Assembly: GCA_021200975.1 (NCBI GenBank)
Contig: JAJQFT010000038.1
Span: 12,469-47,297 of the forward strand
Source of the DNA: Bacillota bacterium
GTDB taxonomy: Bacteria > Bacillota > Clostridia > Oscillospirales > Oscillospiraceae
Direction: 5' to 3'
DNA length: 34,829 nucleotides
Below the pieces are notes generated by a model, which was given only the letters and a program-made list of their open reading frames with translations, was not told where the DNA came from and did no database searches. Of this stretch, positions 11,490 to 19,669 are shown in pieces; within the stretch, counting starts at the first letter, position 1, and each line of letters opens with the position of its first letter. A program made the position numbers and the translations under genes.

Positions 11490-13001
11490 GTGGAACAAAA
11501 CGAGCAGCAAGACGCCCTGCTTCGGATGGTGGACATCACCAAGACCTTCCCCGGCGTGAAAGCGCTGGACAAGGTCAGCCTGACCGTGAAGGCCGGCACG
11601 GTACACGCCCTGATGGGCGAGAACGGCGCCGGAAAATCTACCCTGATGAAATGCCTGTTCGGCATTTACAACAAGGACGAGGGGCACATTTACCTCGATG
11701 GGCAGGAGGTCAACTTCAAAAGCAGCAAGGACGCGCTGGAGCACGGCGTGGCAATGGTGCACCAGGAGCTGAATCAGGCGCTCAAGCGCAGCGTGATGGA
11801 CAATATCTGGCTGGGGCGCTACCCGACCTACGGCGGGATCATGGTCAATGAATCGAAAATGTATAAGGACACCAAGGAGATTTTTGACGAGCTGGACATC
11901 CAGGTGGAGCCGCGCAGGATCATGTCCACTATGCCAGTTTCCATGCGGCAGATGGTCGAGATTGCCAAGGCGGTATCCTTCCACTCCAAGGTGATTGTAT
12001 TCGACGAGCCCACCTCCTCGCTGACCGAGGAAGAGGTGGCACACCTGTTTAAGATTATCCATATGCTCCGCGACCGCGGCGTAGCTATCATCTATATTTC
12101 CCACAAAATGGCCGAAATCAAGCAGATTTCGGACGAAATCACCATCATGCGTGACGGCACATGGGTCGCGACCCGCCCCGCTGCCGAGCTGGAGGTGGGC
12201 GACATTATCCGCCTGATGGTCGGCCGGGAGCTGACGAACCAATTCCCGCCCAAGACCAACCATCCAGGCGAAATCTCGCTGGAGGTCGAGCACCTGAGCG
12301 CGCAGTACAGCCTGCTGCACGACGTTTCCTTCGTTGCGCGCAAGGGCGAAATCGTCGGCCTCGCAGGGCTGGACGGCTCCGGCCGCACCGAAACGCTGGA
12401 GAATATCTTCGGCATCGCGACGCGCAAGGAGGGCACCATCAAGCTCAACGGCAAGCAGGTCAGGAACCGCAACGCCCGCGAATCCATCAAAAACGGCTTC
12501 GCGATGCTCACTGAGGAGCGCCGGGCGACCGGCATCTTCGGCATTCTGGACATCCGGGAGAACACCACCATCTCGAGCCTGCACAAGCACCTGAAGCTCG
12601 GCTTCTGGATTGACGACAAGTCCCGCACCAAGGACACGCAGTGGTCAATCGACGCGATGCGCACCAAGACCCCCTCCCAGTCCACCAAAATCCGCTCCCT
12701 CTCCGGCGGCAACCAGCAGAAGGTCATCCTCGGCCGCTGGCTGCTCACCGACCCGACCGTGCTGCTGCTCGACGAGCCTACCCGCGGCATCGACGTCGGC
12801 GCAAAATACGAAATTTACCAGCTCATCATCGACCTCGCCAACAAGGGCAACACCGTGCTCATGGTTTCCAGCGAAATGCCGGAGCTATTGGGCATTTGCG
12901 ACCGGATTCTCGTCATGTCCGGCGGCCGGCTGGCCGGTGAGGTGGACGCCGCAGCCACCACCCAGGAGGAAATTATGACCCTGGCGGCAAAATATGTCTG
13001 A
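11490..13001 (+). CDS. mglA: Sugar ABC transporter ATP-binding protein (MglA-type, two ABC domains)
   Basis: GTG start after AAAGGAGG; Walker [17 protein letters not shown]; second domain [52 protein letters not shown]. Confidence 0.95.
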
Positions 13002-13015
13002 GGAGGAAAAGAAAA

Positions 13016-14095
13016 ATGGCAAATCCTGACGCATCCCTCCAGCGCACCGCTGAAGAACGCGAGGCCATGAGCAAGAAGAAGGATCGGCGCCGCCGCATTA
13101 CCGACGCCATCCTCAATAACGCGCTGTATATCCTGATGGCCATCTTTATCATCTACACCGCCATCATGCGGCCGAAATTTCTGGGCATCGGCTCCATTAC
13201 GAACCTGATTTCCCTCACCGCCGCGTACTTGCCCATTGCGCTCGGCATCGGCGGCTGCATCGTGCTCACCGGCACTGACCTCTCGGGCGGCCGCTGCGTT
13301 GGCCTCACCGCCGCCGTTTCCGCCGCGCTGCTGCAGCAATCCGGCATCACGAACCGCATCCTGCCGGATGCCTTCGCCAACTTCCCGATTCTCGGCGCGC
13401 TGCTCGTGGCAATCGTGATAGGCGGCATCATCGGCGCGGTAAACGGCTTCTTCGTCGCAAAATTCAGCCTGCATCCGTTCATCGTCACGCTCGCAACCCA
13501 GCTGATTACCTACGGCCTGATCCTGCTGTTCTACATGACCAACGGCAACAACGGTATGCCCATCGCCTCCCTGCGCTCGGACTACTCCTCGTTCATCACC
13601 GGCACGCTGATTAAGATTGGCACCGCCGCAATCCCGATGTATGTGCTGTATGCCATCATCCTGACCGTGCTGATGTGGTTCATCTGGAACAAGACCACCT
13701 TCGGCAAGAATATGTTCGCCGTCGGCTCCAATCCCGAGGCCGCGCGCGTTTCCGGCGTGAACGTTTTCCTCACCACCACGCTGGTGCACACCCTCGCGGG
13801 CGCGATGTACGGCGTGATGGGCTTCATCACCGCCGCCCGCGTCGGCTCCAACACCCAGAACCTCGGCATGAACTACGAATGCGACGCGATTGCGGCCTGC
13901 GTGATTGGCGGCGTATCCTTCGTAGGCGGCACCGGCAAGGTATCCGGCATTGTGCTGGGCGTATTTGTCCTGCAGCTGATTTTCGCCGCGCTGACCTTCC
14001 TCGGCGTGGACGGCAACATGGTCTACATCATCAAGGGTATGATTATCCTGGTTGCCTGCTCGCTCGATATGCGCAAGTATCTGGCCAAGAAGTAA
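13016..14095 (+). CDS. mglC: Sugar ABC transporter permease (MglC-type)
   Basis: Polytopic membrane protein; IALGIGGCIVLTGTDLSGGRCVGLTAAV, GKNMFAVGSNPEAARVSGV, AVGSNPEAARVSG permease motif. Confidence 0.93.
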   Translation: MANPDASLQRTAEEREAMSKKKDRRRRITDAILNNALYILMAIFIIYTAIMRPKFLGIGSITNLISLTAAYLPIALGIGGCIVLTGTDLSGGRCVGLTAAVSAALLQQSGITNRILPDAFANFPILGALLVAIVIGGIIGAVNGFFVAKFSLHPFIVTLATQLITYGLILLFYMTNGNNGMPIASLRSDYSSFITGTLIKIGTAAIPMYVLYAIILTVLMWFIWNKTTFGKNMFAVGSNPEAARVSGVNVFLTTTLVHTLAGAMYGVMGFITAARVGSNTQNLGMNYECDAIAACVIGGVSFVGGTGKVSGIVLGVFVLQLIFAALTFLGVDGNMVYIIKGMIILVACSLDMRKYLAKK

Positions 14096-14423: not shown

Positions 14424-14762
14424 TCACAGCAGGATTTTGATTGTCATTGCCTTGCCGTCAATCTCCATCACCCAGTAAGAGCGGCCGCCCGAATCGAGCT
14501 GCACGCCGCCCGCGCCGTCCGCGCTCAGCGCCTGATAGCCAACGCCCGGCTGCGTGCCGGAATAGGGGACGCTGGCGTAGCCCGCCACCTGCACGGTCGC
14601 AAGGGTGTCGTCCACGGCGGTGCATACGCCCAGAAAGGCATTCCCCGCGCTGCAGTTGAGCGCCTTCAGGCCGGTGCCCACCTTCACCGGCGCGCCCACG
14701 CTGCAATTCGCCCCCGTGAGCGTGACAAACTTCTGCTCGAAGCCCTCCAAAGAAACCTGCAT
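14424..14762 (-). CDS. Uncharacterised 112-aa protein; resembles small phage decoration/DUF2190-like beta proteins
   Basis: MQVSLEGFEQKFVTLTGANCSVGAPVKVGTGLKALNCSAGNAFLGVCTAVDDTLATVQVAGYASVPYSGTQPGVGYQALSADGAGGVQ...; SD AGGAG upstream. Family assignment is memory-based and weak. Confidence 0.65.
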   Translation of the reverse strand: MQVSLEGFEQKFVTLTGANCSVGAPVKVGTGLKALNCSAGNAFLGVCTAVDDTLATVQVAGYASVPYSGTQPGVGYQALSADGAGGVQLDSGGRSYWVMEIDGKAMTIKILL

Positions 14763-14885: not shown

Positions 14886-14914
14886 TTGACAATCGGGGCT
14901 GCACAGATTATAAT
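14886..14914 (+). promoter_or_regulatory. Perfect-consensus sigma-A promoter of HprK/PqqD cassette
   Basis: TTGACA-N17-TATAAT. Confidence 0.93.
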
Positions 14915-14979
14915 AAGGAAGAAATGCTCCGGGCAGCGCGCCCGCCCGGCCCCGATTGGGAAAATCGAAAGGAAGCAAA

Positions 14980-15708
14980 ATGATTACCATTTCCATCGCC
15001 GGGAAGAACGTCGGCATTGACAACCGCTACCCCTACCTCGCGCGCCAATGCGCGCGCTACCATAGCACCGGCGCGGCGGATTTTACCGTGGCCGCCGGTG
15101 AGGCAGAGCTTGCCCGCGAGCGGGCGCTGAACGCGGCGGCGGACGGCCACGCCTGCGACTACTCGGACGGCTACATCGAATCGCTCGCGGTCTACCGCAA
15201 AATTGCCGAGAAAATGCTGGATTTCGACACGCTTTTGTTCCACGGCTCCGGCATTGCAGTGGACGGCGTTGGCTACCTCTTTGCCGCCGTGAGCGGCACG
15301 GGTAAATCCACGCACACCCGCCTCTGGCGGGAGAAATTCGGCGAGCGCGCCGTGATGGTCAACGACGACAAGCCCCTCCTGCGCCTGACCGGGAGCGGTG
15401 CGCTGCTATGCGGCACGCCGTGGAACGGCAAGCACGGTCTGGGCGCGCCGATGGAGGTTCCGCTCAAGGCCATTGTGGGGCTCAACCGCGCGCCGGAGAA
15501 CGCCATCCGCCGCGCCTCGGTCTACGAGCTCCTGCCGCTGCTGCTGCAGCAGACCTACCGCCCAAACAACCCCGCGCTGCTTAGCAAAACGCTTGCGCTG
15601 GTGGACAGGCTCTGCGAGAGCATCGAGCTATACACCCTGCAGTGCAACATGAACCCAGATGCCGCCGACGTTTCCTACGCCGGCATGAACAGAAAGGATT
15701 GCCTATGA
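14980..15708 (+). CDS. HPr kinase/PEP-carboxykinase-like P-loop protein
   Basis: MITISIAGKNVGIDNRYPYLARQC...; FAAVSGTGKSTHTRLWREKFG (P-loop) and MVNDDKPLLR (paired Asp) as in HprK-like kinases; lacks an HprK N-terminal domain. Confidence 0.8.
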   Translation: MITISIAGKNVGIDNRYPYLARQCARYHSTGAADFTVAAGEAELARERALNAAADGHACDYSDGYIESLAVYRKIAEKMLDFDTLLFHGSGIAVDGVGYLFAAVSGTGKSTHTRLWREKFGERAVMVNDDKPLLRLTGSGALLCGTPWNGKHGLGAPMEVPLKAIVGLNRAPENAIRRASVYELLPLLLQQTYRPNNPALLSKTLALVDRLCESIELYTLQCNMNPDAADVSYAGMNRKDCL

Positions 15709-15965
15709 AACTCAAGCAAGGAATGGTCACCAGCAAGGTTGGCCGCCAGCACGTCCTGATCCCCACCGGGGAGGTGCATTTCCACGGGGTGGTGCGCTCC
15801 AATCCCACCGCCGCCTTTATCATCGAGCAGCTCAAATCTGACACGAGCGAGGAGAAAATCGTCGATGCGATGCTCGCCGAGTACGACGCGCCGCGCGAGC
15901 AGATCGCGCAGGATGTGCACAAGGTCATCGAGCAGCTGCGCGAGCAGGGATTTCTGGACGAATGA
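15705..15965 (+). CDS. PqqD-like (RiPP recognition element-type) protein
   Basis: MKLKQGMVTSKVGRQHVLIPTGEVHFHGVVRSNPTAAFIIEQLKSDTSEEKIVDAMLAEYDAPREQIAQDVHKVIEQLREQGFLDE; typical PqqD length and pattern; overlaps upstream stop. Confidence 0.85.
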   Translation: MKLKQGMVTSKVGRQHVLIPTGEVHFHGVVRSNPTAAFIIEQLKSDTSEEKIVDAMLAEYDAPREQIAQDVHKVIEQLREQGFLDE

Positions 15966-16372
15966 CCTACGAGGAATACCTGGCCGCCTACGGCCAGCTT
16001 ACCTACCGCAACGTCGGCACCAGTATGCTCCCGCTGCTCAAGCAGGGGCGCGACCTGTTTGTGGTAGAAAAAAAAGGCGCGGCACGCTGCCGGAAGTACG
16101 ACGTGGTGCTCTACCGCCGCCCGCCGAATCAATATGTGCTGCACCGCATTGTCGAGGTGCGGCCGGATAGCTATGTGCTGCTCGGCGACAATTGCGTGGC
16201 GCGCGAATACGGCATCACCGACGGCGACATTCTCGCCGTGATGACCGCCTTCGTCCACAGGGGAAAGACGCACGCCGTGACCGAGCGGGGCTACCGCCTG
16301 TATTCTCGCCTGTGGGTGGCCAGCTTCCCGCTGCGGGTGCTGCCGAAAAAGCTTTGGGGACTACTGCGATGA
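15962..16372 (+). CDS. S26/S24-type signal-peptidase-like protein
   Basis: NVGTSMLPLLKQGRDLFVVEKK ... YDVVLYRRPPNQYVLHRIVEVRPDSYVLLGDNCVAREYGI: SMLP and GDN motifs. Confidence 0.8.
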   Translation: MTYEEYLAAYGQLTYRNVGTSMLPLLKQGRDLFVVEKKGAARCRKYDVVLYRRPPNQYVLHRIVEVRPDSYVLLGDNCVAREYGITDGDILAVMTAFVHRGKTHAVTERGYRLYSRLWVASFPLRVLPKKLWGLLR

Positions 16373-18003
16373 AAAAGCGATCCGCCGCGCTCGGCTGGCT
16401 CTGGGAAATCTCCGGCCGGGAAAAATGGAAGGTATTTTGGATGGCGCTGGTGCAGGCGGTGCTGGGGCTGGCCTCGGTGGCGAACGCGTGGCTGCTGCGC
16501 GGCCTGATCAACGCCGCGGTCTCGGCGGATTTCCCCCACTTCCGCGCCTATGCCGCGCTCTTCATCGGCCTGCTGGTATTCCAGCTGCTTGCCCGCGCGC
16601 TGTACCGCCATCTGCTCGAATCCGCCCGCTCCGCGCTGGAAAACGCCGCGAAGAACCGGCTTTTCACCGTGCTGCTGCACAAGGACTATGCCGCCGTGAC
16701 CGCCGTGCACACCGGCGAATGGCTCAACCGCCTTACCGGGGACGCCGCCCAGATCGCCGATGGGCTCACCGCCGTATTCCCGGAGGTGCTGGGCATGGCG
16801 GTCAAGCTCGCAGCGGCAATCGCGATGCTGCTCTACCTCATGCCCGGCCTGACCGGGCTGATTGTCGTAGGCGGCTGCGCGCTGATCGCTCTTACGTGGG
16901 CCTTCCGCGCCACGCTCAAGTGGCTGCATAAGCGCATTCAGGAGGCGGACGGGCGGCTGCGGGTCTACCTCACCGAGCGCCTCGGCGCGCTGATGATCCT
17001 GCGCGCCTTCGGGCAGGAGCAAAGCGCCGCGCAGGGCGCGCGGGAGAAGACAGATGAGCACCGCCGCGCGCGCATGAAGCGCAACCACTTCTCCAACCTC
17101 TGCAATCTCGGCTTCGGCGCCGCCATGAATGGCGCCTACGCCATCGGGGCGGTGTACTGCGGCTACGGGATCCTCACCCAGAGCCTCGACTATGGCACCT
17201 TCACGGCGGTTTTGCAGCTGATTGGGCAGATTCAATCCCCCTTTGCCAACCTCAGCGGCTACCTGCCGCGCTACTACGCCATGCTCGCCTCCGCCGAGCG
17301 GATGATGGAGGCGGAGAGCTTCGCCGACGATGACACCGCCGGGGAAACTCCGGAGGATTTTTCCGAGATCCGCTTCCAAAACGTATCCTTCTCCTACCCG
17401 GGCGAGGCGGGCGCGAAGCTGCCGGTGCTCCGGGGTATGGATTTTTCCCTGAAAAAGGGGGAATTTCTCGCGCTTGTGGGGCATTCCGGCTGCGGCAAAA
17501 GCACAGCGCTCAAGCTGCTGCTGGGGCTGTACCGGCCTGACAGCGGCAGCATCACGCTCGACGGTCGCCCGCTCGGCGGCGGCTGCAGGGGGCTGATGGC
17601 CTATGTGCCGCAGGGGAACCTGCTCATGCGCGGCACGGTGCGCGAGGTCGTCACCTTTGGCGAAGCTGTGCCGGAGGCGGATTTCCGCCGCGCGCTGGCG
17701 CTGGCCTGCGCCGATGAATTTGTCGATTCGCTCGAGCATGGGGCGGATACGCAGCTCGGCGAGCGGGGCGCGGGGCTGAGCGAGGGGCAGATGCAGCGTC
17801 TGGCGATTGCCCGCGCGCTCTGCGCCGGGCGCAAGCTCCTGCTGCTGGACGAGGCGACCTCCGCGCTCGACGAGGCAACCGAGCGGCAGGTGCTGGAAAA
17901 TCTGCGCCGCCTCACCGACCAGACCGTGATTGCCGTAACGCACCGCTCCGCGGCTCTGGAGATTTGCGACAAAATCATCCGCATGGAGGAAACGCAGCCA
18001 TGA
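16369..18003 (+). CDS. ABC exporter with fused membrane and ATPase domains
   Basis: ATGA overlap with upstream gene; Walker A LVGHSGCGKSTALKLLLGLYRPDSG, signature LSEGQMQRLAIARALC, Walker B KLLLLDEATSALDEATE. Confidence 0.93.
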   Translation: MKKRSAALGWLWEISGREKWKVFWMALVQAVLGLASVANAWLLRGLINAAVSADFPHFRAYAALFIGLLVFQLLARALYRHLLESARSALENAAKNRLFTVLLHKDYAAVTAVHTGEWLNRLTGDAAQIADGLTAVFPEVLGMAVKLAAAIAMLLYLMPGLTGLIVVGGCALIALTWAFRATLKWLHKRIQEADGRLRVYLTERLGALMILRAFGQEQSAAQGAREKTDEHRRARMKRNHFSNLCNLGFGAAMNGAYAIGAVYCGYGILTQSLDYGTFTAVLQLIGQIQSPFANLSGYLPRYYAMLASAERMMEAESFADDDTAGETPEDFSEIRFQNVSFSYPGEAGAKLPVLRGMDFSLKKGEFLALVGHSGCGKSTALKLLLGLYRPDSGSITLDGRPLGGGCRGLMAYVPQGNLLMRGTVREVVTFGEAVPEADFRRALALACADEFVDSLEHGADTQLGERGAGLSEGQMQRLAIARALCAGRKLLLLDEATSALDEATERQVLENLRRLTDQTVIAVTHRSAALEICDKIIRMEETQP

Positions 18004-18932
18004 AGAAAAAAATATTCGGCATCGCGATCGCCGCCATGCTGGCGCTGCTGTTTGCCGCGCTCGTAATCTATGAGGCAGCGTCGCAGGGCGCACAGCGCAA
18101 GGCGGCGCAGGCGTTGCAGCTGGAGGCGGAGAGCTACAGCAACGAAATCGTAAGCCTGCAAAACGAGCTGACAGCGCGCCAGCAGGCGCTCGACGCCATG
18201 TCCTGCGAGCACGCGGCGGTATTTATCTGCGGCTGGGCGGACACCGTCGGGGAGCTGGAGCAGCTTTGCGCGTGGGCGTCGGCTGCCGGCTTCCCGCTGG
18301 CGGCCGTGCTGGATGCGGACGGGGAGAATTTTGCCGTGCTGCTCGACTGCGCGGCGCAAAACGACTGCTGCGTGCTGCTGACCGGCTCGGGCGACGGCTG
18401 GATTTCCCGCGCGGAGGCGGCGCAGGCCGCTATCTCCGCGGCCGGAGCGGAGAGCGCCGGCTTCCTGTATCTGCAGGAAAACCCCACAGACGACGAGCTC
18501 GCGCAGATTGCCGCCGGCGATTGGCTGGGCTACAGCCTGCCGCTGGGGCTTTCGGATAGCATCAGCACCACGATGTCGGAGGACGGGCCGAGCCAAATCG
18601 GCCACCTGCTTCTGGCCGAAACCAATTCGCTCAACTCCGTGGCGCAGTCGGCAATCAGCCGGGGGCAGGCCTATATCCTCTCGATTGAGATGAATCAGCT
18701 GGGCAGCCTCTTTACCTCCGCGTCGGTAGAGCGCATTCTGCTCGCGCACAAGGACCGGGTGGACACCGGCTACCTCACCAACGAATCGCTCACCCAATAC
18801 ATGGACTCCTACGCCACGCGTCTGGCCGAGGCGGCCGAGCAGCGCGAGGCCTACGAGGTCTTCGCCGCCGAAACCGAGGCGCGTATTGCCGACCTGCGCG
18901 AGGCGCTGGCGGCGCTTTATGCCGCGCAGTAG
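18000..18932 (+). CDS. Membrane-anchored or secreted protein with N-terminal TM, coiled coil and uncharacterised C-terminal domain
   Basis: ATGA overlap with ABC gene; MKKKIFGIAIAAMLALLFAALVIYEAASQG then heptad-like QALQLEAESYSNEIVSLQNELTARQQAL. Confidence 0.8.
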   Translation: MKKKIFGIAIAAMLALLFAALVIYEAASQGAQRKAAQALQLEAESYSNEIVSLQNELTARQQALDAMSCEHAAVFICGWADTVGELEQLCAWASAAGFPLAAVLDADGENFAVLLDCAAQNDCCVLLTGSGDGWISRAEAAQAAISAAGAESAGFLYLQENPTDDELAQIAAGDWLGYSLPLGLSDSISTTMSEDGPSQIGHLLLAETNSLNSVAQSAISRGQAYILSIEMNQLGSLFTSASVERILLAHKDRVDTGYLTNESLTQYMDSYATRLAEAAEQREAYEVFAAETEARIADLREALAALYAAQ

Positions 18933-18965: not shown

Positions 18966-18994
18966 TTGACATTTCTAGCAGATTCCTCTATAAT
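18966..18994 (+). promoter_or_regulatory. Perfect-consensus sigma-A promoter
   Basis: TTGACA-N17-TATAAT upstream of the zinc-ribbon protein. Confidence 0.93.
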
Positions 18995-19027
18995 GGAGGT
19001 AGAATTTCCGGAATGGAGGGTACATAT

Positions 19028-19669
19028 ATGTATAAAAACGTTGGCCGTACAATTCGTGGAATTGCGAAATTCCTCTGCTGGCTTGGAATTATTCTTTCGA
19101 TTTTCGCCGGGATTGGTATCATCCTTTCCGGTGTGCTGGGCGGCTCGCTCCTTGCGGGTCTGACCGGGCAGCATAGCCAGAACGCCGGGGCGGTGACCGG
19201 CGCGGGCATTGTGGCGTCCGTCATCGTGGGCGTCCTGACCGCCGCGATCGGCTCGTTCCTGTCTTGGCTGCTGAACCTGCCGCTGTGCGGCTTTGGCGAG
19301 CTGATTGCCGCATCCAGCGAAACCGCCGCCAATACCCGCGAGCTGCTGCGCCGCGAGGCCGCCGCGCCCAAGAGCGCGCCCGCACCGAGGGTCGTACCCC
19401 CTGCGCCTGCCGCGGCAAAACCCGCACCCGCTCCCGCTGCGCCGAAGAGCGTGCCCTTTGCGACCCCCGCTCCCGCTCCCGCACCTGCTCCCAAGAGCGA
19501 GCCTGTCGCCGAGCCTGCGCCGGAACCCAAGCCAGAGCCTGCGCCGGAACCCGCGCCAGAGCCCGCGCCGGAGCCCAAGGCGTCCAGCGCCCGCTTCTGC
19601 TCCAGCTGCGGCCGGAAGGTGGAAAACGACGCCGCCCGCTTCTGCCCGGAGTGCGGCAAGCCGCTCTAA
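19028..19669 (+). CDS. Membrane protein with Pro/Ala/Glu-rich linker and C-terminal zinc ribbon
   Basis: SD GGAGGG; two TM segments; PAPAPKSEPVAEPAPEPKPEPAPEPAPEPAPEPK linker; FCSSCGRKVENDAARFCPECGKPL. Confidence 0.85.
   Translation: MYKNVGRTIRGIAKFLCWLGIILSIFAGIGIILSGVLGGSLLAGLTGQHSQNAGAVTGAGIVASVIVGVLTAAIGSFLSWLLNLPLCGFGELIAASSETAANTRELLRREAAAPKSAPAPRVVPPAPAAAKPAPAPAAPKSVPFATPAPAPAPAPKSEPVAEPAPEPKPEPAPEPAPEPAPEPKASSARFCSSCGRKVENDAARFCPECGKPL

Follow-up and report, generated by a model that had tools for sequence, protein, structure and literature searches.

What does an operon built around a putative leader-peptide-binding protein do when no peptide is encoded beside it? The question is raised by five genes and their promoter (14886-18932) in a stretch of 34,829 nucleotides (nt) from a gut-type Bacillota bacterium of the Oscillospiraceae (GCA_021200975.1, contig JAJQFT010000038.1); the whole of this stretch is called the window below. 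These genes encode an HPr kinase-like protein, a PqqD-type protein, a signal-peptidase-like protein, an ABC exporter and a membrane protein. The operon is likely the enzymatic and export core of a phosphopeptide pathway akin to the Linear Polyphosphorylated Peptide (LPP) pathway, with precursors encoded in trans. LPP was described in May 2026, in Bacilli, from the lppA-K-B-S-D-N cluster of Paenibacillus alginolyticus DSM5050 (Popov et al., Nat Commun 2026, PMC13381572), the only paper found by a literature search to describe the pathway. There, the RRE (RiPP recognition element, RiPP being a ribosomally synthesized and post-translationally modified peptide) LppB binds the YxxP leader of the precursor, the HprK-like kinase LppK attaches several phosphates to a single Ser of the core, and LppS, which resembles signal peptidases, takes off the leader with LppB's help; for the primary modification the kinase suffices, and the authors state that the final product and its role are unknown (PMC13381572). 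The first four genes of the window operon match lppK-B-S-D in the same order and are called K, B, S and D here. The features are as follows (aa, amino acids).

14886..14914, + strand: sigma-70-type promoter, TTGACA-17 nt-TATAAT, 12/12 consensus
14980..15708, + strand: K, HprK-like P-loop kinase, LppK-like, 242 aa, ATG start with AGGAAG upstream
15705..15965, + strand: B, stand-alone PqqD-type RRE, LppB-like, 86 aa
15962..16372, + strand: S, archaeal-type/S26 signal-peptidase-like leader peptidase, LppS-like, 136 aa
16369..18003, + strand: D, MsbA-like half ABC exporter, LppD-like, 544 aa
18000..18932, + strand: fifth gene, membrane/coiled-coil protein, 310 aa

The original prediction, made from the sequence alone, had placed here a perfect promoter followed by five co-directional, overlapping open reading frames (ORFs), and both are exactly where it put them: the ORFs span 14980-18932 and each of the four junctions is a 4-base ATGA-type overlap. 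In a consensus scan of 5.5 kb, 12/12 sites occur at 14886-14914 and 18966 only; shuffled sequence yields 1.1 sites scoring at least 9/12. Of the identities proposed for the gene products, two are immediately evident. B matches PqqD (PF05402, E 3.4e-18), and D consists of ABC_membrane and ABC_tran domains, with no C39 peptidase domain found in the domain search. The other two are weak when single sequences are used and are backed by family profiles. K has no match in Pfam and weak ones in NCBIfam (HprK_rel_B, 18 bits for a cut-off of 200; ScmC, 17 bits for a cut-off of 125), but its family profile reaches the HPr kinase 1ko7 (E 4.8e-4), and the Walker A motif is invariant in an alignment of 27 rows, as are H88, G106, G108, K109, S110, T111, N128, D130 and G150. 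Similarly, S gives a weak S26-like match (TIGR02228, 8e-7), whereas signal peptidase I and SEC11 are among the matches of its family profile; its Ser21, His61 and Asp76 (GDN), a Ser/His/Asp triad, are invariant among homologues.

The resemblance of B to LppB extends to the residues expected to contact the leader. N33 and D70 of B, conserved in 0.94 and 0.88 of 86 homologues, line up in the profile alignment with N33 and D70 of LppB (9x8z), which fix the Pro kink and the Tyr of the leader (PMC13381572). The profile of B matches TbiB1 (3.4e-9) and TfuB1 (1.2e-6), which are RREs of lasso peptide pathways, PbaB1 (9x90, 1.2e-4) and LppB (9x8z, 3.3e-4). PqqD has just one further match in the genome, on contig C81, where it forms the N-terminal part of a SCIFF-type radical SAM maturase encoded beside a SCIFF-type Cys-rich peptide (L056, 158-1755). 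This domain was considered as a partner of the cassette and rejected, since it belongs to that unrelated maturase.

The conservation of the gene order, which the original prediction had proposed as a check, holds for the first four genes and fails for the fifth. A scan of named genomes found at least 588 relatives of the kinase, and the best 80 belong for the most part to Ruminococcus, Lachnospiraceae, Oscillospiraceae and other Firmicutes of gut or rumen. Within 5 kb of the kinase in these best 80 loci, B was found in at least 64, S in at least 59, D in at least 43 and a PF14907-type nucleotidyltransferase (N) in at least 38, with exact runs of K-B-S in at least 43 and of K-B-S-D in at least 28; short contigs make all these counts lower bounds. 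The K-B-S-D(-N) order recurs far above chance, and the four core genes are widely found together as a unit. In a family sample of 151 genomes, the kinase is present in 31, and close relatives of it (E below 1e-30) in 21. Five genomes of the same genus share the sugar-transport genes found upstream of the operon and lack the cassette at that place. The cassette is therefore a variable genome element, a variable presence likewise reported for LPP in Bacilli, and the possibility that it is part of the upstream sugar-transport operon was rejected.

If the operon handles leader peptides, its substrates have to be sought elsewhere. Among the predicted genes of the window no radical SAM enzyme and no cyclase was seen, and none of its small ORFs fits the precursor motif convincingly, the matches lying in wrong frames or unrelated genes; the same absences had been remarked upon in the original prediction. 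Near the kinases of relatives, YxxP-type peptides of roughly 30-47 aa are found. A profile was built from 33 of the relatives' peptides, the two peptides of the window's own genome not being among its rows; its consensus is MKExYxxPEMEVIEFxxEDVITTS, with F15, D19 and S24 nearly invariant. It has just two matches in the window's own genome, both of 37-39 aa, one on contig C15 (E 4.2e-7; GTG start, MIKYNKPEIEIVKFAKMDVICTSGAPTTGEDEGEIDVGG, beginning IKYNKPEIEIVKFAKMDVICTSG) and one on contig C44 (E 1.5e-5; MTKKIYLEPSMEVIRFTGEDDVLTTSRGGEVAGEIYF, beginning KIYLEPSMEVIRFTGEDDVLTTS). They keep YxxPx[I/M], then F, then the conserved Ser, and the HQ/FET part of the LPP consensus is absent from them. 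On C15 (L079, 125-300), the probable ribosome-binding site of the precursor is part of a hairpin, in its 3' arm, and this hairpin resembles the terminator of the upstream gene; the contig ends just past the precursor, near another inverted repeat. The genome also contains one PF14907 nucleotidyltransferase (LppN-like, 409 aa, E 1.1e-33; C20:3869-5098), located among acyl/acetyltransferase-like ORFs. Neither the precursors nor the LppN-like gene belong to the operon. At least one precursor is on a contig other than the kinase's in nine genomes (the window's own, G036, G060, G061, G080, G085, G124, G138 and G140), although some of the precursor and kinase contigs of these draft assemblies might adjoin. 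Nevertheless, the precursors of G080:C35, G036:C3 and the window's own C44 are not neighbours of the cassette, because they lie well inside long contigs. This distribution supports precursors predicted to act in trans, encoded at a distance from the cassette.

The association between these peptides and the kinase does not depend on the window's own genome. Over the 151 genomes, the precursor profile is positive in 17, and a close kinase is present in 14 of these: precursors are present in 14/21 genomes with a close kinase versus 3/130 without (Fisher p 3.5e-12). The association is also found with any kinase (p 6e-9) and when the four genomes with peptides among the profile rows are left out (10/17 vs 3/130, p 5e-9). 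Two of the three precursor genomes lacking a close kinase are represented by assemblies that are 59% and 67% complete. Precursor and kinase co-occur across genera, and the search for co-varying small ORFs suggested by the original prediction has in this way led to two precursors in trans. One of its readings had been a distantly encoded precursor and maturase: the precursors and the LppN-like enzyme are on other contigs, and no further maturase is needed.

By analogy with lpp of P. alginolyticus, on which every chemical step proposed here is modelled, B would bind the YxxPx[I/M] leader of the 37-39 aa precursors from C15 and C44, and K would phosphorylate the conserved Ser of their DVI/VL-x-TS motif. 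The Ser/His/Asp peptidase would remove the leader from a precursor presented by the RRE, D would export the core peptide and the C20 nucleotidyltransferase may add a further group. The RRE, the likeness to LPP and the YxxP precursors agree with the leader-peptide (RiPP) type of system that had been proposed. The idea that the kinase is the main modifying enzyme fits as well, since LPP relies on its kinase alone for the primary modification (PMC13381572).

The neighbourhoods of the relatives' precursors hint at what such peptides might be for. The gene directly upstream of a precursor usually encodes a giant secreted protein, of about 500-2800 aa, which most often ends in a common domain of ~100 residues (L142:5846-6175 aligned with 23 others). 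The AlphaFold model of this domain is confident (predicted local distance difference test, pLDDT, 88.8; predicted template modelling score, pTM, 0.78); Foldseek found no PDB match for it below E 1, and Pfam gave no match over this region in four example proteins. In the 151 genomes, 14 of the 27 precursors start at most 400 nt downstream of the domain, which co-occurs with precursors (p 1.6e-7) and with close kinases (p 6e-8), p values that are somewhat favourable because the profile was built from kinase- or precursor-selected loci, some of them in the same genomes. Multiple copies are found in G138 (19 matches), G060 (9) and G085 (8). The C44 precursor of the window's own genome starts 22 nt after a secreted-protein gene; the similarity of that protein's C-terminus to the giant domain is not significant, and the giant-protein link is weak in this genome.

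In many loci, a further protein of 78-269 aa is encoded in the interval between precursor and kinase. It carries a signal peptide or lipobox and ends, after a disordered linker, in a short tail such as ELPFVP, whose sequence is similar to the precursor C-terminus in the same locus (GELPFVPAE and ...IELPFVPAF in L115; GGADGNTGGAGNED and GGDSTGSVGGAGTED in L092). The summed local-alignment score of tails and precursors is 379 over 16 loci, against 265 +/- 24 when shuffled, and 1/20,000 shuffles reaches 379; since the pairs were hand-picked from gene tables, this likeness is only suggestive. No tail-mimic protein was seen in the window operon. Secreted or lipid-anchored, mostly disordered tail proteins occur in L086, L092, L108, L113, L115, L127, L136 and L142. 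Tentatively, and with rather less than even confidence, we suggest that in Clostridia a single kinase-RRE-peptidase-exporter cassette may serve scattered client units, each made up of a giant secreted protein and its own YxxP peptide. In that case, the phosphopeptides would be dedicated partners (a tag, an anchor or a release signal) of these proteins, a class of giant surface proteins whose C-terminal domain had not been described before, and not free antimicrobial or signalling peptides.

Alternatively, the cassette could be a general secretion or capsule accessory exporter, its RRE and kinase acting on larger surface proteins or on polysaccharide machinery and the peptides being incidental. 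Some relatives (L037, L049, L050 and L065) do adjoin capsule genes (Wzz/CapD-like), the nucleotidyltransferase of the window's own genome has acyl/acetyltransferase-like neighbours and the precursors adjoin giant secreted proteins. Yet the occurrence of peptides with the RRE-binding motif is strongly tied to that of the kinase, many relatives have the giant gene on one side of them and the kinase on the other, and peptides of this sort are the substrates of the characterised homologous system. This explanation seems unlikely.

A second flavour of cassette was seen among distant relatives of the kinase (~285 aa; L057-L070), with radical SAM enzymes, PqqD and Cys-bearing peptides of 60-100 aa (MKKxYxKPxxxxExFxLxxxIAxxC) adjoining giant secreted proteins. 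In L096, from Faecalibacterium prausnitzii APC923/51-1, the kinase (12065-12801) is followed by a radical-SAM-like protein of ~450 aa and by two tandem peptides of the precursor family, some with Cys.

Several observations weigh against an LPP-like pathway. The kinase resembles solved structures of HprK weakly and only locally. The spacing between His and Asp in the peptidase is 15, compared to 25 reported for LppS, and that between F and Ser in the precursors is 9, compared to 5 in the LPP consensus of Bacilli; as the precursors differ from that consensus, spacing included, their cleavage and phosphorylation sites are not readable. The C15 precursor has a GTG start, its ribosome site is inside a hairpin and it lies near a contig end. 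In the secreted-protein gene upstream of the C44 precursor (L080, ~12400-13592), the frames of signal peptide and body are shifted by one base relative to each other at a C run, and phase variation, decay and assembly error cannot be told apart. This frame offset speaks for a decayed, non-functional remnant, a cassette left without local precursor and nucleotidyltransferase, as do the position of the precursor and LppN genes outside the operon and the lack of a cassette next to the sugar-transport genes of the five congeners. Nevertheless, none of the five ORFs is disrupted, the promoter matches the consensus perfectly and the residues for catalysis and binding are retained. Precursors in trans are also found in several relatives whose cassettes are intact; we regard decay as very improbable.

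The fifth gene is an accessory, rare and so far unexplained. Searches of Pfam and NCBIfam gave no significant match for its product, whose AlphaFold model, based on two sequences, is weak (pLDDT 61.5, pTM 0.44): an N-terminal transmembrane helix continues into a long helix, the region after it (76-178) is alpha/beta and weakly modelled, and a last helix forms the C-terminus. Foldseek found nothing convincing for this model. The gene was matched in 3/201 family genomes, among them the window's own and one with a weak match that lies elsewhere. The only other cassette carrying it is that of L037/L119, where a 27% identical homologue adjoins B-K-S-D in a different position. The suggestion that the last gene handles the substrate finds no support, as the gene is rare (two cassettes) and has no recognisable domain. 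Around the operon, the second 12/12 consensus promoter (18966-18994) lies upstream of a gene for a 218 aa membrane/zinc-ribbon protein (19013-19669), and a stand-alone ORF of 112 aa on the opposite strand (14424-14762, -), divergent from the operon, is a candidate phage structural or decoration protein by its resemblance.

Compared with known systems, the adjacency of an HprK-related kinase and a PqqD-type protein recalls SynChlorMet (ScmC/ScmD) and the HprK-rel-A/B + PqqD systems (TIGR04249, TIGR04355, TIGR04353), but the scores are far under the curated NCBIfam cut-offs and the window operon has no radical SAM enzyme. The paeninodin-like lasso peptides are closer, and the cassette could be seen as a phosphorylated lasso peptide pathway whose cyclase and B2 protease were lost or displaced. 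An HprK-like kinase, an RRE and a nucleotidyltransferase are shared with paeninodin-type clusters (PMC13381572; PMC7533575), an ABC exporter is a further likeness, the YxxP motif of the precursors is lasso-like and the C15 precursor has a Thr before SG. However, the B2 transglutaminase-like leader protease (Transglut_core3, PF13471) has 0 matches in the window's own genome, and the only strong Asn_synthase match (PF00733) there is an ordinary AsnB on C15 with an intact N-terminal Cys, besides a weak partial one on C46 (E 5e-5). Moreover, the S26-type peptidase is typical of LPP and not of lasso pathways, the RRE has N33/D70 and the leaders carry Tyr instead of the Trp of paeninodin leaders. 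The lasso pathway was rejected because the genome lacks the B2 protease, and we consider it very unlikely.

LPP itself remains the best match. Apart from the shared gene order, both systems have an HprK-like kinase, a stand-alone RRE with N33/D70 (leader binding being predicted here), an SpI-like (archaeal/SipW-type) serine peptidase with Ser/His/Asp, an MsbA-like exporter devoid of a peptidase domain, YxxP leader peptides and an NTP_transf_5 enzyme. The differences are the location of the precursor genes on other contigs and of the LppN-like gene on C20, both being in the cluster for LPP, the precursor consensus, which in LPP is YxxPxVLxHQxIxFETxxS (PMC13381572), the extra fifth gene and the clostridial host. 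Because the precursor and LppN lie outside the cluster and the precursor consensus differs, the system is called LPP-like and not a strict lpp cluster. It had been predicted to be uncharacterised, which no longer holds now that a close relative of its four-gene core has been described (PMC13381572); the system is probably a clostridial, dispersed version of that kind. It points to a large clostridial branch of LPP-like systems in rumen and gut Firmicutes, with scattered precursors that travel with giant secreted proteins; cluster-based genome mining will miss many of these precursors. The tie of the relatives' precursors to giant secreted proteins is absent from the main text of PMC13381572, and the link of such peptides to giant surface proteins is unreported; it offers a concrete, testable lead on the role of LPP-type peptides.

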